A stretch of 64,000 nt of DNA from Dactylorhiza incarnata (lineage: Eukaryota > Streptophyta > Magnoliopsida > Asparagales > Orchidaceae). A program made the translations under genes and the position numbers. Every line of letters begins with the position of its first letter. The stretch's first letter is position 1. The notes under the pieces are model-generated. The model saw only the letters and a list, made by a program, of their open reading frames with translations, was not told the DNA's origin and ran no database searches. Positions 2,221 through 58,594 of this stretch are shown here, one piece after another. The DNA lies in NCBI GenBank assembly GCA_033032865.1, contig JAWHQI010000262.1:2232001-2296000 (forward strand). The letters are read 5' to 3'.

Positions 2221-3810
2221 GTGTGTTGGCAGGCTAAGGGCAAAGAAGACGTGTGGTACTTGGACTCGGGTTGTTCAAAGCACATGACGGGTAATAAAGA
2301 GAAGTTCCTTAGCCTGGAGATGAAGAAAGGAGATGTTGTTACATTCAGAGATGATGGAAAAGGAAAAATCATCGGCATCGGAGTTGTGGGTAACAAAAAT
2401 TTTTCAATTTCAAATGTTTTATTTGTAGAAGGATTAAAGCATAATTTGATTTCTATTAGTCAATTATGTGATAAAGGTTTAGATGTTTTATTTGAGTCTT
2501 CTACAAATTTGTGCAAAATTATTAATTTTAAAACAAAAGAAATTGTTTTTACCGCACCTAGATGTCATAATGTATATATGATTAAATTTCTTGATTTTTC
2601 AAATTCTACTTTAAAATGTTTTTTATCAAAAAATGATGAATTAGAATTATGGCATAGGCGACTTGGACATACTAGTGCCAAGTTAATTACAAAACTTTCA
2701 AAAGATAAATTAATTAAAGATTTGCCATTGTTAAATGGAAATTTATCTTCTTCATTATGTGTGCCTTGCCAAAAAGGAAAATTTTCAAAATCATCTTTCA
2801 AAAGTAAAAATATTATTTCTACCACTAGGCCACTTCAATTAATACATATGGATTTATTTGGGCCAATTGGAATTCCTAGCTTAGGAGGTAGAAAATATAC
2901 ATTTGTATTGATTGATGATTATTCTCATTTTTGTTGGACTTTATTTCTAACCTCCAAATCCGATGCATTTTCAGAATTTTCAAAATTATGTTTGCGTATT
3001 CAAAATGAATTTGAATTAAAAATTAAACGCATACGATCGAATCATGGAGGAGAATTTGAAAATGAAAAGTTTATTTCTTTTTGTACGGAGTTAGGAATTA
3101 AACATGAATTTTCCGCTCCACGCACACCACAACAAAATGGTATAGTGGAGAGGAAAAATAGAACTCTTCAAGAATTAGCCCGTAAGATGCTATCTGAATT
3201 TAAATTACCAAAATCTTTTTGGGCTGAAGCGGTTAGTACGACATGTTATGTAATTAATAGAGTAATGCTTCACCCTATTTTAAAATTAACTCCTTATGAA
3301 TTAATTTTTAATAAAAAACCAAATGTTTCTTATTTCAAAGTTTTTGGTTGTAAATGTTTTATTTTGAATTCTAAAGATTCCTTAGGAAAATTTGATGAAA
3401 AATGTGATGAAGGTATTTTTATTGGCTATTCTTCAACTAGTAAAGCTTATAGGATTTTTAATAAAAGAACAAAAATAGTTAAAGAATCTATTCATGTTAG
3501 GTTTGATGAGTTTGCTTCATGTGTAGAAAAGAAAATTACAGGAAAAGAAGATGAACCCCTTCCTTCGGTGGAGAATGATGATGAAGAACTTGGAGAAAAT
3601 GAAGAAGAAAAAGAAGAAGAAAGAGAAGGAGAAAGAGAAGAAGAAGATAGAGAAGTAGAAGAAAGAGAAGAATATGTGCCTCCAAGTGAATTGAGATTTT
3701 CAAAGGATCATCCAAAGGAGCTTATCATTGGAGATCCGCAAAAAGGGGTTAGTACTCATTCATCGTTACATGTTTTATTTTCAAAAACCTTTGCTTTGTC
3801 TCTGAAATAG
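2221..3810 (+). pseudogene. pol: copia-1 pol, protease and integrase part
   Basis: Directly in frame with gag after a TAG. Aspartic protease motif WYLDSGCSKHMTG lies near the start (residues about 12-24). The GAG-pre-integrase zinc-binding segment (WHRRLGH then CVPCQKGK) follows at about 143-190. The integrase core begins at MDLFGP. The second catalytic Asp is replaced: the sequence reads RIRSNHGGEFEN where the family has RSDHGGEF. The glutamate (NGIVERKNRT) is kept. A Glu/Arg-rich linker near 455-490 precedes the expected RT start. The frame is lost near 3770-3790 and ends at 3810, so this polyprotein is disrupted. Confidence 0.9.
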
Positions 3811-27516: not shown

Positions 27517-28880
27517 CTAATTTAGTTCTTCTTCCATTGTAATTATCCAATGGGGGTCTTCATTTGCTTCTTGGAACTTCTTTGGTTCAACCTGCGAGAG
27601 GAATCTTAAATGCATATTTTCGTTAGTAGTACCTCTTCTGGTTTTAATGTCGCCATGAGGGTCTCCTATGATCTGATCAATAGGATGGTCCCTCAGATGT
27701 CTGAATTCAAGATTCCTTGCATTATTTGGAGCACCAGGAGCTTCTTCTACAACTGGAGTGTCTTCCTCCACTTGGATTGGCTCTTCATCAAGATGATCTT
27801 CCTCTTTAGTTGAGGTTGGGCGAGGGATCTTGATGAAGTGTTGAGCATCTTCTTCAGCTAGCTTCTCCAAGCATAACTCTTGCAGCCTTGAACCTACATC
27901 TTCAACAGAAACAATAGAGCAGCTGCTATGTAGCATACTCGTCTCATCAAATACAACATTAATAGATTCTTCTACAACCATGGTTTTTTGATTAAAAACT
28001 CTATAAGCTCTACTATGGCTACTATAGCCTACGAAAATACTTTCAAAGCTCTTTTCACTAAACTTGGTTTTGTAATGCTTTCCATTATTAAGTACAAAGC
28101 ATTTACTGCCAAAGATTCTAAAATAAGAGATGGTTGGTCTCTTGCCTGTTAGTATTTCATAAGGAGTCTTTTCATGGTTCTTGTTTATGAGTGCTCTGTT
28201 TTGCACGTGGCAAGCAGTGTTGACGGCTTCAGCCCAGAGGTATTCGGGTAGTGAAGTGTTGCTCAACATTGTTCTGCAAGCCTCAACGAGTGTTCTATTC
28301 CTTCTCTCAGCTACCCCATTTTGTTGTGGAGTTCGAGGAGAGGAAAACTCATGAAAGATACCAAGGCTTTCACAGAAATCTGTGATGGCTCCATATTCAA
28401 ATTCTATTCCATGGTCACTTCTGATTTTGACCACTGAACAATCTAATTCGCTCTGAATTTGCTTGACAAATTTAGTGAAAATATCAAATGTATTTGACTT
28501 GTGTTTTAGAATGAATACTCATGCAAAACGTGAGTAATCATCTACAATAACCAATGTATAAGACTTTCCTCCTAAACTTCTAATTTGCAAAGGACCAAAC
28601 AAGTCCATATGAAGCTGGTATAAACACCTGGTAGAGTCTTTGCCAATAATGCTCTTAAAGGTAGCTCTTGTTTGCTTGCCTTTTATACGTGCATGATAAG
28701 GTCTATCTTTAATGTACGTAACATTTGGCGCATCACGCAATAAGTTTTGAGAAAACAGTTTGTTTATAGTTTTGAAATTAATATGTGATAATCTCTTATG
28801 TCATTGGTCAGCAAGAGATGCACTATCTTTTGCTAACAAGCATACTGGTGTAGACGATGATAAACAAAGAAAATTTAAAC
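27517..28880 (-). pseudogene. pol: copia-2 integrase
   Basis: The core from 28740 reads LHMDLFGP (first Asp), then after a stop near 28520 IRSDHGIEFE (second Asp kept) and NGVAERRNRT (Glu). The following segment to 27517 holds the C-terminal FVGYSSHSRAYRVFNQKT motif and the acidic linker to RT. The N-terminal HHCC zinc finger is decayed: the CxxC part reads RPYHARIKGKQTR. Confidence 0.87.
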
Positions 28881-43796: not shown

Positions 43797-44730
43797 TCCG
43801 AGAACCGTTGATTACTTATACTCAAACGAATTACTATTATTTTATCTTAATAATTTTTTGGAAGGTTTTGTCTGCTAAGTTGAAATAAAAGCTGGATAAA
43901 AGTACGGCTAAACGATGATTAAGAAATAGCACTCGATCTTGACTTACTTCGACTTAAGTTGATCAAAATTCAAAAGCAAACTTAAAACTTAATAAAGTAA
44001 GGGTAGCTTGACCGTGGGGGTTCCTATAGTTTGAACATGCTTCTCTCGAAGATATGCCCAACTGAGTTTAGGAAAATCCGACCGAACTCTCGTCCCGTAT
44101 TCGAATACCTAAAACTCGCTTTAAGTGGTGAACCCCGCTATTGGGTTTGACTCCAATCCAGGAGATTTACGTCATTCTCTCTCGAGAAATGTGTGTAACT
44201 CTCTTTACTCTTAAGTACTCACTTCAGACTATCGGCCTCTCGGCTAGCCAAGAATGAAAGCAAAGGTGGAGATTATATATCGATAATATAGCTCCACTAA
44301 ATTTTAATTAAGAGTGAATCTAAGGCCCAACACTTTAGAAAGTGAAAGAAGACTAAAGGATCATAACTTGATCAACTCATCCTCAGATCATCAAGATCGA
44401 GTACTATGAGGATTTAGCTACTCATGGTGGAGGGGTAGGAGAGAGAAATGATGAAGATTTTAAGAGAGCAAAAACATACAATTTTTATTAAACAAAAGTT
44501 CAACTGAGATTACAATTGCATGGAAAGCCTACTAAGCATTAGTAATACACTATAAAAGGAAATTACAAAGGCATTACAACATTCATATGAAAACTAGAAA
44601 AGGAAATGCATTGAAATAAGAGAGAGAGAGAGAGAAAGAGAATAAAATGACATGAAAATCACTGAAAATAGAGTAGTAGCACTAGTTCTCTCTCCAAAAA
44701 CTGAATGGGGAAAGCTTGGAGGTCATTTCA

Positions 44731-44740
44731 ATTTATAGAA
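44731..44740 (-). promoter_or_regulatory. TATA-like box in Athila-2 3' LTR
   Basis: Minus strand TTCTATAAAT, just downstream of the U3 motif cluster; also present in the other LTR near 53680. Confidence 0.55.
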
Positions 44741-44749
44741 ATTTTTCTG

Positions 44750-45240
44750 CCTCGGTCACACCCTCAGTCACGCCCGTGACTAGGGGCATGACATTGTTTA
44801 ATCAATTATGCGGCTTGGATTAGGTTCGACTCACGATTATGACACGATTTGATGGGTCACGCCCTAGGTCACGCCCGTGACTGAGGGCGTGACCATTTCG
44901 GTGGTTAGCTCGGGTCATGGGCGCTGGCGGCGATCATGGGCACTGGCGGCGATCATGGGCGCTGGCGGCTGGCTGACGTGGCAGTCACGGGCGTGACTGG
45001 AAGCACGCCTGTGTAATAGTGGCGTGACCAATTCGGTGGTCAGCTGGTCGAATCAGAGCTGTTCACGGGCTGGTCACGGGCGTGGCTTGCGTGTCACGGG
45101 CGTGACTTGTGTGTCACGGCCGTGTACTTTGGGCGTGTCTGACCAGATCTTCTGAATTATGTTGGCAGCAGCTTAACTGGAAACAGCAACTTACACGCCC
45201 TAGGTCACGGGCGTGACCTAGGGCGTGACTTAGGAAATTT
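44750..45240 (-). promoter_or_regulatory. GTCACGSSCGTGAC palindrome cluster in U3 of Athila-2
   Basis: Many copies of GTCACGCCCGTGAC and GGTCACGGGCGTGACC, plus tandem GATCATGGGCGCTGGCGGC units (three here, two in the other LTR). CpG-rich. The same motif type fills U3 of Athila-1. Confidence 0.75.
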
Positions 45241-45394
45241 TGCATTTTTGACCTGAAAATTCAGAAAACTTAAGTTAGCACTAAAAATAGGAAAATGAAC
45301 CAAAATTGCATTTAGGTAAACAACAATAAGCAAAAAGTAAGAGTAAATAACCTAAAAAATAACCTAATTAAACTAACTAGATTTAGCATTATCA

Positions 45395-45409
45395 AATTCC
45401 CCCAAGCTT
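45395..45409 (-). other. polypurine tract of Athila-2
   Basis: Minus strand AAGCTTGGGGGAATT directly before the 3' LTR start TGATAATGC. A second similar run (GTAAGCTTGGGGGAGAATG) lies at 46802-46820. Confidence 0.9.
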
Positions 45410-47177
45410 ACACTTTGCTTGTCCCCAAGCAAAGAAATATGCTTTAGCTAATAAAATAAAATGACTAATCAAAAAGATTTAATTATGCTAAACACGAGTA
45501 CCTTGCGAAATTCCAAGTAGGGAGAATAGTGAAAAGGAAACCTAAAATAAGTACTTTATTTAAGCTTAATTTTTATACCCTTTACTAACAAAAATTAATC
45601 ATCCAAAATTTTAACTAAAAAGTTTTAAAATAAAATTGAGCAAAGTAACAAGTGAGATAGTGCATTGAATTGTTACTAAACCCTAAGAGACAAATTATAA
45701 TTATATCATTCTAAGAACAAGGATCTAAATTCATACCCAAGACTTAACTATTCTACTTTTCTTCTTTACTTAGCTAAAGCAAATTTAGGAGCATGAATCA
45801 AGAGGACTTTATTAGGACCGAAATGTTTGGTTTAGTCATATGATTTGGAATGGGAATCGAAGATAAAAGTGATTGCTATAATCACACTAAACCATAAACA
45901 TGAGTTTTATAAAATTTCCGATATGAATGATAAGAGGCAATCCTTCATTATAAGCATATAGCATATTTTCTTTCTTTCTCTTTCATAGCCAATTTTTTTT
46001 TTATAAAACTCACACTAACATTTTTTTTTTTTTTTGAAATTTTGGCAAAGATAACTAATACAAATATGCTTAAAATATCTCCTTTTTGAATAAATTCTTT
46101 TCTTTGAAGCTCTCCATGCAATAAACCAATCACACTCTTTTAGAAATTTAAATAAAACTCAAAGTGTTAGTGTGATTCAAATAGGTTTGGAAATTTTGGC
46201 TTTGGTGAAAAATTTGATAAGTGGAGGTGACAATAAAACATGGGAAAAGGCTCAAAAGAGGCTAACAACGGGTTTCTTTTTAAGGCTTGGCATGAAGGCT
46301 CAAACTTAAAACAAAAATGGCCTAAATCATATTCATTGCTCTCTAAATTTATTTAAAGCATGAGTTTTGAAGGATTTCAAAAAGTAAGCCCTAGATATTA
46401 AATAAAGACTAATGAACTTATCCTGAAAATAAGAATAATAAGCGTCTAGGATTATTCACATTTACTACACAAATCAAAAGTTAACCTTGCAAAATATATC
46501 TAAAAATGAAGAGAAAAATAGTGGATGAAGAATTTTTACGAAAGTAAAGAAGATAAAAGAGAAAACGATAAGGAAAGTACAAGATTTTAGAAAAAACTTT
46601 TCAGATTAACATGCTACCTAGAATTAGAACACTACATGAGTCAACAATTTACTTGTGAAACATAATTAAAAGTAGGATTAGAAATTTTGAAATTAACTAA
46701 GGCTATATAAAATATTTTGGGAAAAACAAAACATAAAGCAAGGGGTACTATTGATTTTACCAAAATCTAATTTAGACTACTAAAACAAAAGAAAAGAAGA
46801 CATTCTCCCCCAAGCTTACGATAGACATTGTCCTCAATGGAAAAGGAGAGTGAAGGAAGGGGTAACTAAGAAAAGAAATTAAAACTGAAAAACTGAAACA
46901 GGCACTTCCCTGGATTTATGGGCTTGAAAGGATGTGTGATGCCGCTCCCCCTTGTTGGCGCTTTGAATCTTCATGAAATATCATCTTGAATTTTTCTTGA
47001 AACCAGCAATGTTGAAGCAGGCGATCGCCGAAGTTGAGAGTATCGGAGCCATCCAGGGCCAAAGAAAAATTAAAACAACAAATTTTAAAAACCTTGGGTT
47101 ACCTCCCAAGAGCGCCCTCTGTTTAATGTCGTTTGAGCTCGACTAAAGGAATATAGTTCAAAAGTTAATCCAAATTA
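45410..47177 (-). other. Athila-2 3' noncoding region
   Basis: About 1.8 kb of AT-rich sequence after pol. No env-like or other credible frame was found. Features seen: AAACAGAGGGCGCTCTTGGG near 47112-47131, a motif also found after Athila-1 pol; and a second polypurine-like run at 46802-46820. Confidence 0.7.
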
Positions 47178-50100
47178 TTACAGTCCAGACAAAAGAAGTT
47201 TTTCACTGTCCATGTCAACATTGTCACCAGAAAAATAAAGTTTTAGATGATGCCCATTAACCTTGAAATCACCCTTATCTGGGTGTGATATCAAAACAGT
47301 TCCATACGGATAAGCTTCCTTTACATTAAAAGGACCTGACCATCTAGATTTTAACTTTCTAGGAAATAAACGTAGACGAGAATTATAAAGTAATACTTGG
47401 TCGCCTGGTTTAAATGTTTTCGGGTGCCTTAAATTTTTATCGTGAAAGCATTTCGTTCATTCCTTGTATAATTTATTATTTTCATACGCATTGGAGCGCC
47501 ACTCATCGAGTTCGTTGAGTTGGAATTTTCGAAGATCGGCGGTGGAGTGGGGATCAAACTTTAAAAATTTAAGGGCCCAGAAAGCACGATGTTCTAATTC
47601 GACCGGTAAATGGCATGATTTCCCATATACTAACCGATACGGTGTACAACCGATGGCGGTCTTGTACGCTGTTCGGTAAGCCCATAGAGCATCGTCTAAT
47701 TTATGTGACCAGTCCTTACGTGAGGTGGAAACAGTTTTTTCTAAAATACGTTTGATTTCTCTATTCACTACCTCGACCTGGCCGTTAGTTTGGGGGTGGT
47801 AAGCAGTTGAAAGCTTATGTGTAACGCCATATTTTAAAAGTGTTTTTGCAAATTGTGCGTTACAAAAGTGCGAACCCCTGTCGCTAACGATGGCCCTAGG
47901 AGTACCGAATCGAGAAAATAATTTTTTTAAGAAAATAATAACGACTCGGGAGTCATTGGTAGGAAGAGCTTGGGCCTCTGCCCATCGAGACACGTAGTCT
48001 ACCGCAACTAAAATGTATTTATTACCATGGCTAGAAGGAAGAGGACCTACAAAATCAATTCCCCAAAGGTCGAAAACTTCGCACTCGAGGAAATAATTTT
48101 GCAACATTTCATTTTTATTTGAGATATTTCCGGTCCGTTGGCAGCTATCGCACCGTCTCAAAAAAGATTGGGCATCTTTAAAAAGGCTAGGCCAATAAAA
48201 GCCTGCACTAAGTACTTTGTGAGCGGTCCGATTGGCTTGATAGTGCCCACCAGTCGGTCCTTCGTGTAAGTGTTTGAAAATATTTTGTCCTTCTTCGAAA
48301 GAAACACATCTCCTTACTACTTGGTCTGCACAAACTCGAAACAGATACGTGTCCTCCCAAAAATAATTCTTCAGGTCAGAGAAGAATTTCTTCTTTTGCT
48401 GATAGGAAAATTCTCTTGGGAGGACTCGAGCTACTAAGTAGTTGGCGAAGTTTGCAAACCAAGGAGAAGGAGTAGTGTTGATTGATAATAACTTCTCGTC
48501 GGGAAAATAATCATTAAAAGTTTGTTCATTTAAATCTTCAATAAATGGGTTATCTAATCGTGAAAGATGGTCCACGGCCAAATTCTCAGCCCCCTTTTTA
48601 TCTCGGATTTCCAAGTCGAACTCCTGGAGGAGTAAGACCCAGCGAAGTAAGCGTGGTTTGGCATCCAGTTTAGAAAGTAAATATTTGAGGGCCGAGTGGT
48701 CCGTAAAAACAATAATTTTTGAAAGCGTAATATAAGGTCGAAATTTGTCGAATGCAAAAATAACTGCTAATAATTCTTTCTCCGTTGTGGTATAGTTCGC
48801 TTGCGCGGATGTAAGTGTTTTACTTGCGTAGAAAATAGGGTGGAAGTTTTTAGATATACGTTGTCCTAAAACGGCTCCCACCGCGAAGCTACTTGCATCG
48901 CACATGATTTCGAATGGAAGGTCCCAGATTGGAGCTATCATAATTGGCGCATTTATTAGCTTATTTTTGATTAATTGAAAAGCAGATAAGCATGTATCAT
49001 CAAAAATAAATGGAGTGTCTTTTTCTAAAAGATGAGTGAGTGATTTGGTAATTTTCGAAAAATCTTTTATAAACCGCCGGTAAAAACCGGCATGTCCTAG
49101 AAAGCTTCTTATGGCCTTAACGTTGGTTGGCGGTGGCAGTTTTTCGATCACTTCTATTTTTGCTTCATCGACCTCAATTCCTCTTGCTGATATCTTATGA
49201 CCTAAAACCAATCCCTCCCGTACCATGAAATGACATTTTTCCCAGTTCAGGGCGAGATTGGTCTCCTCACACCGTTCTAACACTTTTTTTAAATTTTCTA
49301 AACAAAAATCGAAGGAATCACCAAACCTGGAAAAGTCGTCCATAAATACCTCCATAATACTTTCTACGTACTTGTCGAAAATGGCCAACATACACCGTTG
49401 AAATGTTGCCGGCGCATTACATAAGCCAAACGGAATTCTTCGATAGGCAAAGGTGCCGAAAGGACAAGTAAACGTCGTTTTCTCCTGGTCCTCGGGCGAG
49501 ATGGGAATTTGGAAGTAGCCCGAGAGACCATCGAGAAAACAATAAAAGCTATGGCCGGATAATCGTTCTAAGATTTGATCGATGAATGGCAAGGGGAAAT
49601 GGTCCTTGCGGGTGGCGTCATTCAATTTGCGATAATCAATACACATACGCCACCCAGTCACCGTCCGTGTTGGGATTAAGTCATTATTATCATTTAACAC
49701 TACCGTGATACCTCCCTTTTTAGGAACTACTTGAACGGGGCTTACCCATTTGCTATCTGAAATTGGATAGATAATTCCTGCGTCTAATAATTTCACGACC
49801 TCACCCTTTACTACTTCTTTCATGTTTGGGTTTAATCGGCGTTGAGGTTGAATAGAATTTTGTGAATTATCTTCCATTAGAATTTTGTGCATGCAGAAAG
49901 ATGGACTTATGCCCTTAATATCAGAAATCTGCCAAGCAATTGCTTGGCGATGTTTTTGTAAAACTTTTAGCAATTTGGCATTTTCAGATCCACTTAAATG
50001 GGCCGACACTATTACTGGTAACTTAGAGTCTTTTTCTAAATATTCAGATTTTAAATGATTGGGTAGTTCTTTAAGTTCTAAAGTGGGAGGTTCCTCGTAT

Positions 50101-52463
50101 GAAGATTTGAAAGACTTTTCTTTTTCAAAAGTAATTTCTTCAAAAAATTTTGATTTAATTTGAAAATTTGAGGGGGCGGGAGCAATGCCCATTTTCATTT
50201 CTTGTAATATTTCAGTGGAGGTGTTTGAAGATGAACAAAAAGAAGAAGAACCATTTTCAGAATTACAAAAAGAAGGGTCTTCACTTAACACATCTAAGAA
50301 AAAACACGAATCGTCATTTTCTAGGGTATTTTTCATAGAGGGTGTTATGGAGAAGGTTACTTCATCATCTCCAACTCGGAGGAATAGCTTACCATTACTC
50401 ACATCAATGATAGCACGGGAGGTGGCAAGGAAGGGGCGGCCAAGGATTAGGGGAACCTCGACATCCTCTTCAATGTCCAAAATGACAAAATCCACCGGGA
50501 AGATGAATTTGTCTACTTTTACGAGCACGTCCTCCACAATTCCCAGCGGATATTTTATCATCCTATCTGCTAGTTGTATACTCATACGTGTGGGGCTAAG
50601 GGTGCCCACTCCTAACTTCTTAAACAAGGAGAATGGCATTAAGTTGATGCTTGCTCCTAAGTCGGCCAACGCGTTCTTTACAAATAGATCACCAAAGAGG
50701 CACGGGATAGAAAAACTACCCGGATCGTTAGCCTTTTTCGGTAATTTATTTGTTAGGATGGCGGAACACTCAGCATTTAAAGTTACGTGCGATAGATTTT
50801 CTAGCTTTTTCTTATTAGTTAGAAGATCCTTCAGGTACTTAGCGTACTTGGGCATTTGTGATATCGCTTCATGGAAGGGCAAATTGATGTGTATTTGCTT
50901 AAACATTTCCAGGAAGCGATGATATTGATCATCTAATTTTTCCTTGTTGAGTTGAGATGGATAAGGCGGGGCGGGGTTGTTTTTGAAAATATGAGGTGGA
51001 GTGATAAAATTTGTTTGAGTGAGTGGTGTTTTTAAAATAGGGGCGGATCTTGCCTCGGGCTCTTCGCTAACTGGACCGGATACTTGCTTTCCACTCCGAA
51101 GAGTTACAGCTTTCGCTTGCTCTTTCGGGTTGGGCTCGGTGTTAGCGGGAAGAGTCCCGGGCGGTCGCTCGGATATTATTTTGGCGAGCTGCCCGATTTG
51201 GTTTTCTAGATTTTTAACGGATCCGGCTAAGTTCCGGACGGTTGCTTCGTTCGTACTTATATATTTTGAAAACATCTCCTCCAAAGATGGAGGTTTTTGA
51301 AAGTTAACAGGGGGTGGAGGTGGTGTAAATTCATTTTGTAGAGGTGGGCGAGTTGTGTTTGCAGGATTACTCCAAGAAAAGTTCGGGTGATTACGCAGCG
51401 CAGGATTATAATTATTCGGTAATTGAAAACCAGGTGCATGAAAATTAGAAGCAGAATAATTATTATAAGCATTTCTATTGCCTACGTAATCAGCTTGTTC
51501 GGAGGTGGCTTTTTCGAATTCCCAAACCTGAGGTGCGGAAGGAGCATTCATTTCAGATATCTTTTTGCTAAGCATTTCCACTTGTAGTGCCAGCTGGGAG
51601 ACGTTATCCACTTCGTACATACCTGCAGCTTTGTTTGGGCGGGATCTTGGCACATTCCACTGATAGGTGTTCATGGCAATATCCTCAAATAGTTCAAGAG
51701 CGGCTTCCGGGGTTTTGTTATTTAAGGTACCACCGGAAGCGGCGTCTATCATTTGCTTAGTATGTTGGTTTAGCCCGTTATAAAACGTCTGCACTTGTAA
51801 CCATACAGGCAGAGCGTGATGAGGGCAATGTCTTAAGAATTCTTTATACCTTTCCCAGGTATCATATAGCGTTTCAGAATCTATTTGGCAAAAAGAAGAA
51901 ATATCATTTCTAAGCTTAGCAGTTTTCGCAGGTGGAAAATACTTAGTTAGAAATTTTTCAGTTAACTTGGCCCAAGTGGTGATAGAACCTCTAGGTAGAG
52001 TTGACAACCACTGCTTAGCCTTTGTTCTTAAAGAAAATGGGAAGAGTCTTAGCCTAATTGCATCATCCGTAACACCATTTATTTTGAAGGTGTCACAGAT
52101 TTCAAGGAAGCTAGCAATATGTGCATTCGGATCTTCATCTTGTAATCCGTCGAACTGCACGTATTGCTGCACCATGTGAATTATGCTTGGCTTTAGTTCG
52201 AAATTATTATTATTTATGGCAGGGCGGACTATACTAGTTTCCGTCCCTTCCAGGTTAGGCCTTGCATAATGGGACAGAGTCCATTCAGGGGCCGCAACCA
52301 TGTTGGGGACTTCATTTTGGTTAGGTTCGCCCATATTAACAACCGACTCCGAATCCTCAGCCAGTTCTTGGAATGTAGGATCTTGAACTTGCGATTTTCT
52401 CCGAAGAGTACGCTCAAGTTCTTGGTCCAAGTCTACAAGTTCTGACGGATTCGCTCGGGTCAT
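47178..52463 (-). pseudogene. gag-pol: Athila-2 Gag-Pol polyprotein, one stop from open
   Basis: One frame of 1761 codons broken only by TGA at 47459-47457; 1668 codons lie before it. Gag (about 50-420): [51 protein letters not shown]; no CCHC knuckle seen. Protease [12 protein letters not shown] near 640. [22 protein letters not shown] and [13 protein letters not shown]. RNase [50 protein letters not shown]. Integrase: [51 protein letters not shown]. All catalytic residues I can identify are present. The stop fits a CGA-to-TGA change at a CpG; the remaining 92 codons hold LKSRWSGPFNVKEAYPYG. Gag and Pol lie in one frame without a recoding signal, as usual in this clade. Confidence 0.94.
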
Positions 52464-52617
52464 AAACTAGAAAGAGAGAAGGGAAAATAAGATTGAGAAA
52501 TTCGAAAAAGTTCTCTCTTTTTTTTGAGTTAATTTTGTTTTTTCAAGAAAGAGGAGAGAAAAAAAAGAGGTGATAAAAGTAATAGATTCGTTCTTTCAAA
52601 ATATCAACAAAATGCGA

Positions 52618-52636
52618 GTCCCCGGCAACGGCGCCA
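52618..52636 (-). other. primer binding site of Athila-2 (tRNA-Asp type)
   Basis: Minus strand TGGCGCCGTTGCCGGGGAC, six bases after the 5' LTR; the standard Athila primer site. Confidence 0.93.
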
Positions 52637-52642
52637 AAAACT

Positions 52643-54293
52643 TGTTGATTAAAATTCCGCTTGCACGAAATGAAATCCGAACTAGCAATCCGAGAAGGCA
52701 AGTATACCTATCGAACTGTAGTATAGGAACACAAGTGTCGTATTAAAATCCGAGAACCGTTGATTACTTATACTCAAACGAATTACTATTATTTTATCTT
52801 AATAATTTTTTGGAAGGTTTTGTCTGCTAAGTTGAAATAAAAGCTGGATAAAAGTACGGCTAAACGATGATTAAGAAATAGCACTCGATCTTGACTTACT
52901 TCGACTTAAGTTGATCAAAATTCAAAAGCAAACTTAAAACTTAATAAAGTAAGGGTAGCTTGACCGTGGGGGTTCCTATAGTTTGAACATGCTTCTCTCG
53001 AAGATATGCCCAACTGAGTTTAGGAAAATCCGACCGAACTCTCGTCCCGTATTCGAATACCTAAAACTCGCTTTAAGTGGTGAACCCCGCTATTGGGTTT
53101 GACTCCAATCCAGGAGATTTACGTCATTCTCTCTCGAGAAATGTGTGTAACTCTCTTTACTCTTAAGTGCTCACTTCAGACTATCGGCCTCTCGGCTAGC
53201 CAAGAATGAAAGCAAAGGTGGAGATTATATATCGATAATATAGCTCCACTAAATTTTAATTAAGAGTGAATCTAAGGCCCAACACTTTAGAAAGTGAAAG
53301 AAGACTAAAGGATCATAACTTGATCAAATCATCCTCAGATCATCAAGATCGAGTACTTTGAGGATTTAGCTACTCATGGTGGAGGGGTAGGAGAGAGAAA
53401 TGATGAAGATTTTAAGAGAGCAAAAACATACAATTTTTATTAAACAAAAGTTCAACTGAGATTATAATTGCATGGAAAGCCTACTAAGCATTAGTAATAC
53501 ACTATAAAAGGAAATTACAAAGGCATTACAACATTCATATGAAAACTAGAAAAGGAAATGCATTGAAATAAGAGAGAGAGAGAGAAAGAGAATAAAATGA
53601 CATGAAAATCACTGAAAATAGAGTAGTAGCACTAGTTCTCTCTCCAAAAACTGAATGGGGAAAGCTTGGAGGTCATTTCAATTTATAGAAATTTTTCTGC
53701 CTCGGTCACGCCCTCAGTCACGCCCGTGACTAGGGGCATGACATTGTTTAATCAATTCTGCGGCTTGGATCAGGTTCGGCGCACGATTCTGACGCGATTT
53801 GATGGGTCACGCCCTAGGTCACGCCCGTGACTGAGGGCGTGACCATTTCAGTGGTTAGCTCGGGTCATGGGCACTAGCAGCGATCATGGGCACTGGCGGC
53901 TGGCTGACGTGGCAGTCACAGGCGTGACTGGAAGCACGCCCATGTAACAGTGGCGTGACCAATTCGGTGGTCAGCTGGTCGAATCTGAGCTGTTCACGGG
54001 CTGGTCACGGACGTGGCTTGCGTGTCACGGCCGTGTACTTTGGGCGTGTCTGACCAGATCTTCTGAATTATGTTGGCAGCAGCTTAACTGGAAACAGCAA
54101 CTTACACGCCCTAGGTCACGAGCGTGACCTAGGGCGTGACTTAGGAAATTTTGCATTTTTGACCTGAAAATTCAGAAAACTTAAGTTAGCACTAAAAATA
54201 GGAAAATGAACCAAAATTGCATTTAGGTAAACAACAATAAGCAAAAAGTAAGAGTAAATAACCTAATTAAACTAACTAGATTTAGCATTATCA
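52643..54293 (-). repeat. 5' LTR of Athila-2
   Basis: Complete, 1651 bp, TGTTGATTAA to ATTATCA on the plus strand. Compared with the other LTR it lacks one GATCATGGGCGCTGGCGGC unit and one CGTGTCACGGGCGTGACTTG unit. Confidence 0.94.
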
Positions 54294-55768: not shown

Positions 55769-56048
55769 TGATGAGTACTTTTTATACTGATCTTTTAGTA
55801 TAGTTATAATATAACTTTAATATGAATTTATATAATTTATATGTATTATCCTTAATAAATTGTTCCTTTTCATATTTATGTACTAACTTAAGCTTAATTT
55901 CTATTTTTCTGGTTTTTTGGACATTCTGAGCAGAAATTACAAGTACATGCCCTAGGTAACGGGCGTGACAAAGGGCGTGACAACCTAAGATGTTGTTCCA
56001 GACCTACTGCCACCATCCTGGGCTCATTCCGAGAAGATTAACCAAGTA

Positions 56049-56053
56049 CACGC
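56049..56053. repeat. target-site duplication of palindromic block, left copy
   Basis: CACGC, repeated at 58135-58139. The sequence with one copy removed reads AGTACACGCCCTTGGTC, matching the empty site AGTACGCGCCCTAGGTC in the 5' LTR (16474-16490). Confidence 0.88.
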
Positions 56054-58134
56054 TGTAACGGCCCAGCCCCGACCACCACACCAGAGGCCTACGGCACCGC
56101 CCCATCCCTGGTGGGCCGGCTAACCGGCCGTTGACAAGGACTGCAGTCCGGTGCACCCCACCCATGGCTGAGCCTGTTTCTCAGCTACAGTGGGATGTTG
56201 ATGGCGGGTCTCGATCCCCCGCCACCCTTGATAAGGCACCTTCAACAGTCCTCATCACCAACTGAGCTGCAGCTCAGTTGGTGATGAGGACTGTTGAAGG
56301 TGCCTTATCAAGGGTGGCGGGGGATCGAGACCCGCCATCAACATCCCACTGTGCACTTTTTTGTAACGGCCCAGCCCCGACCACCACACCAGAGGCCTAC
56401 GGCACCGCCCCATCCCTGGTGGGCCGGCTAACCGGCCGTTGACAAGGACTGCAGTCCGGTGCACCCCACCCATGGCTGAGCCTGTTTCTCAGCTACAGTG
56501 GGATGTTGATGGCGGGTCTCGATCCCCCGCCACCCTTGATAAGGCACGTTCAACAGTCCTCATCACCAACTGAGCTGCAGCTCAGTTGGTGATGAGGACT
56601 GTTGAAGGTGCCTTATCAAGGGTGGCGGGGGATCGAGACCCGCCATCAACATCCCACTGTAGCTGAGAAACAGGCTCAGCCATGGGTGGGGTGCACCGGA
56701 CTGCAGTCCTTGTCAACGGCCGGTTAGCCGGCCCACCAGGGATGGGGCGGTGCCGTAGGCCTCTGGTGTGGTGGTCGGGGCTGGGCCGTTACAAAAAGTG
56801 CACTTTTTTGTAACGGCCCAGCCCCGACCACCACACCAGAGGCCTACGGCACCGCCCCATCCCTGGTGGGCCGGCTAACCGGCCGTTGACAAGGACTGCA
56901 GTCCGGTGCACCCCACCCATGGCTGAGCCTGTTTCTCAGCTACAGTGGGATGTTGATGGCGGGTCTCGATCCCCCGCCACCCTTGATAAGGCACCTTCAA
57001 CAGTCCTCATCACCAACTGAGCTGCAGCTCAGTTGGTGATGAGGACTGTTGAAGGTGCCTTATCAAGGGTGGCGGGGGATCGAGACCCGCCATCAACATC
57101 CCACTGTAGCTGAGAAACAGGCTCAGCCATGGGTGGGGTGCACCGGACTGCAGTCCTTGTCAACGGCCGGTTAGCCGGCCCACCAGGGATGGGGCGGTGC
57201 CGTAGGCCTCTGGTGTGGTGGTCGGGGCTGGGCCGTTACAAAAAAGTGCACTTTTTGTAACGGCCCAGCCCCGACCACCACACCAGAGGCCTACGGCACC
57301 GCCCCATCCCTGGTGGGCCGGCTAACCGGCCGTTGACAAGGACTGCAGTCCGGTGCACCCCACCCATGGCTGAGCCTGTTTCTCAGCTACAGTGGGATGT
57401 TGATGGCGGGTCTCGATCCCCCGCCACCCTTGATAAGGCACCTTCAACAGTCCTCATCACCAACTGAGCTGCAGCTCAGTTGGTGATGAGCACTGTTGAA
57501 GGTGCCTTATCAAGGGTGGCGGGGGATCGAGACCCGCCATCAACATCCCACTGTAGCTGAGAAACAGGCTCAGCCATGGGTGGGGTGCACCGGACTGCAG
57601 TCCTTGTCAACGGCCGGTTAGCCGGCCCACCAGGGATGGGGCGGTGCCGTAGGCCTCTGGTGTGGTGGTCGGGGCTGGGCCGTTACAAAAAGTGCACTTT
57701 TTTGTAACGGCCCAGCCCCGACCACCACACCAGAGGCCTACGGCACCGCCCCATCCCTGGTGGGCCGGCTAACCGGCCGTTGACAAGGACTGCAGTCCGG
57801 TGCACCCCACCCATGGCTGAGCCTGTTTCTCAGCTACAGTGGGATGTTCATGGCGGGTCTCGATCCCCCGCCACCCTTGATAAGGCACCTTCAACAGTCC
57901 TCATCACCAACTGAGCTGCAGCTCAGTTGGTGATGAGGACTGTTGAAGGTGCCTTATCAAGGGTGGCGGGGGATCGAGACCCGCCATCAACATCCCACTG
58001 TAGCTGAGAAACAGGCTCAGCCATGGGTGGGGTGCACCGGACTGCAGTCCTTGTCAACGGCCGGTTAGCCGGCCCACCAGGGATGGGGCGGTGTCGTAGG
58101 CCTCTGGTGTGGTGGTCGGGGCTGGGCCGTTACA
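56054..58134. mobile_element. palindromic array of a 216-bp tRNA-like repeat, alternating orientation
   Basis: Five units of head-to-head inverted arms: 56054-56361 (second arm truncated), 56362-56793, 56809-57240, 57256-57687 and 57703-58134. Full units are 432 bp (two 216-bp arms meeting at CTGCAG); they are joined tail-to-tail by 15-bp A/T spacers around GTGCAC, giving a 447-bp period. The block starts TGTAACGGCCC, ends GGGCCGTTACA and has CACGC duplicates. Copies differ at only about four positions (56548, 57491, 57849, 58094). GC-rich, unlike the surroundings. No ORF of note. TG/CA ends and 5-bp duplicates suggest retroviral-type integration; the arms look SINE- or LTR-derived. Family not identified. 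Confidence 0.85.
56578..56640 (+). promoter_or_regulatory. tRNA-like A and B boxes in palindrome arm (example copy)
   Basis: CAGCTCAGTTGG (56578-56589) matches the tRNA A box TAGCTCAGTTGG except for the first base. GGATCGAGACC (56630-56640) resembles the B box GGTTCGANTCC. Spacing (41 bp between) is compatible with a pol III internal promoter. The pair is present in every complete arm, in both orientations. Confidence 0.55.
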
Positions 58135-58594
58135 CACGCCCTTGGTCATGGGCGTGACCGAGGGCGCGTCAACTTAAACCACGGTTCCAACTCAGTCGGG
58201 TGTGAACCAAACCCATGACGTGAACCTCGCCAAGAACATGCACGTAACTCATAAGTCATGCCCGTGTTCGATCACGCTTCACACGCCTATCCCAGATCAC
58301 GCCCGTTATCACTCCCTGAGGATATTTCGCACATTTCACGCCTGTGTAATTCAAAGGTCACAGGCGTGTAACTACTTTGTTGCCAAATCACGCGCCATCC
58401 TGCCGAAAGTTACCCGCCAAACTGCAGTTTAAAGATTACACGCTCTAGGTCATGGGCATGACAAAGGGCATGATGTGCAACGTAATGCCTGCAATTACTC
58501 CAGAAGGAGCCCTCTCCGTAGCCGTTTCACATCCGACCCATACATGTCCTTGGTCACGGGCTTGACTGAGGGCGTCTAACCTTCAACTTTTTCC

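Follow-up and report, generated by a model that had tools for sequence, protein, structure and literature searches.

The closest described relative of the element family reported here is Helenus, judging from the accessible part of its description, where the elements are said to carry direct LTRs, a PBS and a polypurine tract (PPT), together with a tRNA-like part that is not complementary to the PBS; their 5-bp duplications are reported there for plants (one species) and for fungi (Kojima 2024, PMC10886601). Cassandra, as far as the consulted text goes, has a 5S-derived promoter, and the pattern used to search for it includes TGGTATCAGAGC (PMC7215508). For retrozymes, the available sections report 4-bp duplications, a tRNA-Met PBS, a PPT and hammerhead ribozymes, and propose a Ty3-gypsy helper as well as the formation of multimeric cDNAs and their integration (PMC4918200).

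On the basis of these partial texts, our family has in common with Helenus that it is non-coding, carries LTR-like repeats with tRNA-like candidate Pol III boxes, is flanked by 5-bp duplications and would rely on autonomous LTR elements, while it differs from Helenus in its palindromic repeat, its 16-bp self-complementary internal stretch and the absence of a visible tRNA PBS or PPT (PMC10886601). With respect to the direct LTRs of TRIM and Helenus elements, its 432-bp repeats recur as direct copies, each of which is itself palindromic. A Pol III promoter within the repeat (here only Pol III-like boxes) and tandem arrays are shared with Cassandra, for which the consulted text does not describe alternating palindromes (PMC7215508); with retrozymes, as portrayed in the sections available, the family shares its nature as a non-coding plant element, together with a proposed LTR-retrotransposon helper and the proposed integration of multimeric cDNAs (PMC4918200). 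The first-pass annotation of this DNA knew of no described plant element that had this structure plus TG/CA ends and 5-bp duplicates. This calls for qualification, since TRIMp3 elements (Helenus, Cassandra) and retrozymes have several of the features; alternating palindromes of this kind appeared in none of the literature searched. Likewise, neither a palindromic-LTR element nor a self-primed Pol III element was found in the open literature, as represented by titles and abstract openings; Repbase and subscription papers fell outside this scope.

The array lies within a 64,000-nt stretch of Dactylorhiza incarnata DNA (the window; Table 1). The first-pass annotation had read it as five near-perfect alternating palindromes. 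We found inverted arms of 667, 663 and 447 nt with 100% complementarity and a direct period of 447 bp, and the centres alternate between CTGCAG and GTGCAC exactly as proposed. Five units are indeed present, but only four of them are full 432-bp units, the first being truncated to 216+83 bp, which accounts for a 308-bp spacing in the repeat search of the window. The earlier estimate of about four arm differences over 2 kb proved accurate: among the ten arm copies (2027 bases), we counted exactly four private differences, each confined to a single arm, and given these the array looks young. The termini read TGTAACGG...CCGTTACA with CACGC on either side, in agreement with the TG/CA ends and 5-bp duplicates that had been noted. 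The linkers of this array are 15 bp long, are built around GTGCAC and fall one base short of exact self-complementarity (4A/5T or 5A/4T).

Table 1. Coordinates of the array and its features within the window
Feature	Positions	Strand	Remark
Left target-site duplication CACGC	56049..56053		
Unit 1, truncated: 216-bp arm + CTGCAG centre + 83 bp of second arm	56054..56352		
Partial linker GTGCACTTTTT	56351..56361		2-nt overlap (GT) with truncated arm; read by eye
Unit 2, 432-bp palindrome TG...CTGCAG...CA	56362..56793		
Linker AAAAGTGCACTTTTT	56794..56808		
Unit 3, 432-bp palindrome	56809..57240		
Linker AAAAAGTGCACTTTT	57241..57255		
Unit 4, 432-bp palindrome	57256..57687		
Linker AAAAGTGCACTTTTT	57688..57702		T-run would terminate outward transcript
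Unit 5, 432-bp palindrome	57703..58134		CA at end
A-box-like CAGCTCAGTTGG	57919..57930	+	first base outward of centre; mirror copy 57907-57918, - strand
B-box-like GGATCGAGACC	57971..57981	+	2 mismatches to RGTTCRANYCC; mirror copy 57856-57866, - strand
Right target-site duplication CACGC	58135..58139		

The window array is one of many related insertions in this genome, which together make up a large family of short mobile DNAs that are non-coding and insert as strings of mirror-image units. In the 3.27-Gb genome (3184 contigs), the linker pattern GTTACA-N3-7-GTGCAC-N3-7-TGTAAC was found at 1380 places and its reversed control at 0, a count that lies far beyond chance. An exact 20-nt centre occurred at 911 places (control 0), and two arm searches gave at least 260 and at least 202 matches from the 40 of 1206 and 40 of 1276 candidates that were scored. 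We parsed 34 loci (the window array, L002 and L039-L070), which were high-scoring matches and are therefore biased toward young, multi-unit copies. This set leaves out listed places on C2549, C584, C332, C206, C3073, C99, C2928 and C299, and L001 and L003-L038 are not counted separately, as they mostly overlap parsed loci. The check proposed in the first-pass annotation, namely a search for other loci with differing unit numbers and duplicates of their own, succeeded among the parsed arrays.

Across these loci the inserted module has the form n x (TG-arm-CTGCAG-arm'-CA), in which AAAAAGTGCACTTTTT-type linkers connect the units and a single pair of 5-bp duplications encloses the whole. Thirty arrays yielded 143 complete arms, 50 of them distinct, in length classes of 213, 214, 216, 217, 249, 250 and 266 bp that are mixed, several occurring within one array. 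The linker is usually 16 bp long, with AAAAAGTGCACTTTTT accounting for 42 of the 53 linkers in the 30 arrays, and the internal stretch between units spans 15-18 bp and occurs in 7 variants besides AAAAAGTGCACTTTTT. An exact 5-bp duplication at TG...CA was present in 27/34 arrays and a 6-bp one in 0; chance would give about 0.45 among the 460 start/end pairs that were compared. The search was confined to ends carrying the TG/CA motif, which is part of the reason why linker bases are absent from the integrated ends. When the ends of the 27 exact arrays were shifted as a control, 5/1890 and 4/1890 matches were obtained against an expected 1.8 each. The duplication pair flanks the whole array and not the single units. 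By reading, the duplication is off by one base in L061, L066, L067 and L002, and L053, L056 and L062 have no canonical end on at least one side. Of the 27 exact arrays, 25 include at least one linker, within a set of matches biased to multi-unit copies. A few copies are shorter: L064 consists of one 432-bp unit flanked on either side by GTGCC, L065 shows a single centre and lacks a linker, and L066, a lone unit of 428 bp, has an imperfect duplication. TG...CA ends combined with a fixed short duplication, as in LTR-type integration, are therefore a property of the family.

Palindromes are prone to produce chimeric reads, and an assembly or fold-back read artefact would be one way to obtain such arrays. 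We consider this extremely unlikely, because 34 loci could be parsed, 27 of them with exact duplications and with subtypes mixed within arrays, and because the 500-bp flanks of the 27 exact loci showed only 10 partial matches between loci.

The identity of the arms that meet at each type of junction bears on how the arrays were made. The first-pass annotation had ascribed them to fold-back or hairpin-primed copying. Partners across the CTGCAG centre differed at no more than 3 positions in 56/62 pairs of complete arms, as compared with 18/34 pairs across the linker (30 arrays; Fisher p 7e-5, where pairs within a single array are not independent). Non-adjacent mates of one array were alike in 115/202 pairs, which equals the linker pairs (p 0.71), and arms from different arrays in 74/381; these counts leave out L053, L056, L062, L002 and every incomplete arm. 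Since linker partners resemble random array mates, the linker joins independently drawn units. In contrast, the near-identity of arms over the centre indicates that one arm was probably copied from the other. The remaining 6 of the 62 centre pairs had more than 3 differences, and thus single arms can also reassort and intramolecular fold-back is not universal. The proposed copying therefore agrees with the data at CTGCAG, also in mixed arrays, but not at GTGCAC: because this linker often joins unlike subtypes, strict two-ended hairpin replication does not account for it. The linker joins better fit RNA pairing or cross-priming via the self-complementary linker.

Tandem duplication alone is ruled out for the family by mosaic arrays with a single duplication pair. 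A related possibility is that one palindromic unit was inserted and then expanded locally by unequal exchange or replication slippage. This would suit the window array, which is nearly uniform (4 differences) and where, given this homogeneity, amplification could have followed insertion, and also L068 (span 649-2792), in which two adjacent 401-bp units of non-identical sequence share a rearrangement, the same off-centre fold-back at an internal CCTTGATAAGG. As arm subtypes common to unlinked loci adjoin within one array that has one duplication pair, we regard local expansion as an improbable source of the arrays.

The arms carry candidate transcription signals. An A-like box, exactly CAGCTCAGTTGG and starting at base 1 outward of the centre, was found in 45/50 distinct arms, and a B-like box with 1-2 mismatches to the B-box consensus RGTTCRANYCC was found in 50/50 at about base 52-55 outward. 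When five representative arms were shuffled 4000 times each, 146 to 240 of the sequences per arm (4-6%) held an A/B pair, and the inward strand also holds such a pair in 3/5 of these arms. The boxes are weak alone, and as motif matches the Pol III signs are at most suggestive. No tRNA was detected by ARAGORN in the window or at the Rfam gathering score in L002 and L062, and neither a tRNA nor a hammerhead appears in the 88 Rfam matches (E up to 10) for window positions 55900-58400. A microRNA reading (mir-789 and others) was rejected, as the matches lay under the Rfam gathering scores and are expected of any perfect hairpin. Membership among the retrozymes was set aside given the lack of a hammerhead match and duplications of 5 bp rather than 4 bp.

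The outward strand is free of TTTT before the linker in 143/143 arms, so that the first run of at least four T is the linker itself; simple shuffling of one arm (2000 sequences) likewise left about 76% without TTTT, and the inward strand of the 143 arms also lacks it. In computed folds, the linker RNA formed a duplex between two molecules at -18.3 kcal/mol as compared with -0.7 kcal/mol for the linker hairpin alone, a difference that favours cross-priming; within an arm-plus-linker fold, the linker formed a 6-bp hairpin. Pairing with the CCA end of a tRNA needs TGG, and no TGG, and hence no PBS for a tRNA CCA end, is present in AAAAAGTGCACTTTTT or its 7 variants. A polypurine tract was also not found before the TG of the next unit, where GTGCACTTTTT precedes TG on both strands.

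These features bear on the alternative that the family is a TRIMp3/Helenus-type element of the ordinary sort whose LTR is palindromic. Such an element would be copied as an LTR-to-LTR RNA from an external primer and form arrays by LTR-LTR recombination or via circular DNA. The TG/CA ends, 5-bp duplications, short size and tRNA-like boxes are all as such an element would have them, and tandem arrays are on record in the accessible text for both Cassandra (PMC7215508) and LTR-11_DR (PMC10886601). Nevertheless, the 16-bp internal stretch is devoid of TGG, no polypurine tract precedes the next TG, and recombination between homologous units alone gives no preference for a change of subtype at the linker. 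We therefore judge this alternative rather unlikely.

We conclude that the family consists of non-coding LTR-type retroelements whose nearest kin are TRIMp3/Helenus and the retrozymes; in them, the palindrome takes the place of the "LTR" and the 16-bp self-complementary linker that of the "internal region". Copying apparently proceeds by way of RNA and relies on enzymes borrowed from retrotransposons. Our main reading, to which we assign a probability of roughly 0.55, is that of a non-coding, high-copy LTR-type retroelement with a Pol III-like transcript that is self-primed via the linker and integrated as a concatemer. According to this model, Pol III would start at the CTGCAG centre, transcribe outward and stop in the linker's T-run, yielding an RNA of about 230 nt that ends in AAAAAGUGCACUUUUU. 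This end is fully self-complementary and could form a hairpin in one RNA or a 16-bp duplex between two, and it would then prime reverse transcription on its own RNA or on that of a partner. The U5 of the transcript end would pair with A5, making the T of TGTAAC the next base copied, and removal of the RNA primer would leave a cDNA starting exactly at TG. The cDNA is predicted to stop at the centre and to fold or pair there, upon which the second arm would be copied, giving a palindrome with like arms. Read-through of an unremoved RNA primer would add a linker and the next arm, giving concatemers with mixed subtypes, and the concatemer would be inserted by the integrase of an LTR retrotransposon with TGTAAC termini.

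If the linker serves as both terminator and primer, the minimal active source would be an array of at least two units, and because the palindrome offers the same primer site on both strands, a polypurine tract would be unneeded. The strongest argument for self-priming appears to be the coincidence of the TG ends with the predicted primer boundary in 27 arrays, within a search restricted to such ends. Tf1-type LTR retrotransposons also use their own RNA as primer, with its 5' end folded onto the PBS; our family would instead prime with the 3' end. SINEs are Pol III transcripts that LINE machinery inserts; their duplications are variable and they have a 3' tail. Membership among them is ruled out by the fixed 5-bp duplications and the TG/CA ends.

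Irregular junctions suggest that the molecules had one end near the centre and the other at TG or in the linker, and that strands were switched where short homologies allowed, a behaviour seen in reverse transcription. In L042, L046, L055 and, in reverse, L051, the linker passes into the centre via a common TGCA, which is the sole 4-mer common to the 16-nt linker and the 16-nt centre. This junction occurs at 218 places genome-wide (120+98; control 1+0). End-to-end joins with a CA overlap were seen in L042, L062 and L051, and the exact, longer pattern for this join matched 4 places, a figure that is not comparable with 218 because the patterns differ in length. L056 starts at CTGCAGCTCAG, adjoining unrelated sequence, and L042 and L053 switch into LTR-like sequence at TGCAGCTCAG; these sites may mark a molecule end near the centre. 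The breaks in L040, L043, L049, L050, L052, L054, L067 and L002 lie elsewhere in the arms or linker and follow no single rule.

Two arrays have captured foreign LTR-like sequence, as is expected if reverse transcription occurs in particles of such elements. L042 (3518 bp, one CCGGG pair) contains 1036 bp that are 99.8% identical to a piece of contig C33, and the genome matches of this piece include four pairs about 6.4 kb apart. The match begins two bases upstream of TGTAACGCCCC in one C33 copy and at TG itself in the other, as expected beside a 3' LTR. L059 (3236 bp, one ATGAA pair) includes foreign sequence over about 2.2 kb; a search with 616 of these bases gave 99-100% identity to three pairs about 6.45 kb apart. 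The two captured stretches are weakly related to one another, and both contain TGTAACGCCCC, which is close to the array end TGTAACGGCC. L053 adjoins a further related LTR-like family, two copies of which lie on one side of the array; as both are on the same side, this sequence may be a neighbouring insertion. Four copies of the same family follow one another at about 5.79-kb spacing at C255:1609784-1627755, a series that looks like a tandem LTR-internal-LTR run.

The capture of LTR-like sequence also weighs on a different origin, namely transposase-driven movement of a foldback or MITE DNA transposon. Long terminal inverted repeats and a unit with no coding role would be in keeping with it, but linked concatemers with a constant linker, TG/CA ends with 5-bp duplications and captured LTR-like sequence would not, and on these grounds we reject it as very improbable.

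A search for an autonomous helper among frames and pieces of the C33 copy, L075 and L059 found none. For the 1.5 kb read within the C33 copy and for the 213-aa open frame in L075, the sole domain match was a zinc knuckle slightly under its cutoff, and no homologue was found (E 1e-3 for the L075 piece). In L059, a stretch of 50 aa that on inspection resembled a Ty3 RT start was not confirmed: it matched no Pfam family, hit one PDB polymerase at E 0.19 and gave no useful match to the Ty3 frame of the window.

We place the family among the non-autonomous LTR-type retroelements, with a fair chance that it forms a kind of its own. Somewhat more doubtful than the main reading, and offered tentatively, is the proposal of a separate retroelement class that has no tRNA primer or polypurine tract, in which a self-complementary Pol III RNA 3' end primes both strands as a hairpin or dimer; such an element would necessarily be palindromic, set its own integrase ends and be concatemeric, with two units as the minimal replicator. 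If this is true, one 16-bp self-complementary sequence, in an element of a few hundred non-coding bases, does the work for which LTR elements need a tRNA primer, a PBS and a polypurine tract; the palindrome is then a consequence of the mechanism itself, and SINE-like transcription is linked to LTR-type integration. The occurrence of alternating inverted arrays in a large genome would also be accounted for, the arrays would be young, high-copy sources of long double-stranded RNA, and first- and second-strand priming would be open to direct testing.

Some linkers carry extra A/T about an unchanged GTGCAC core (for example, AATAAAAAGTGCACTTTTTAT), and two neighbouring pairs of these are spaced 555 and 551 bp apart (C44:4249717-4250302; C66:7285475-7286054). 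From this 551-555-bp spacing, more diverged sister families probably exist.

The window also holds other retroelement sequences. Its frame at 2221-3810 contains gag_pre-integrs, rve and SH3_retrovirus domains, and that at 27517-28518 contains SH3_retrovirus, with rve below the cutoff; we take these integrase-region domains to be of the kind usual in Copia elements. On the - strand, positions 43797-54293 are taken up by a Ty3-type element. Its LTR-like direct repeats lie at 43797-45394 and at 52749-54293 and show 95% identity, and its single open frame of 1669 aa (47457-52466) has gag, RT, RNase H and integrase domains along with a protease match below the cutoff. GGGCGTGAC-type motifs are found inside its LTR-like repeats and also on both flanks of the array, at 55945-55990 and 58134-58587. 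The motifs on the flanks suggest that the array may have landed in an older element related to the neighbouring Ty3 one.
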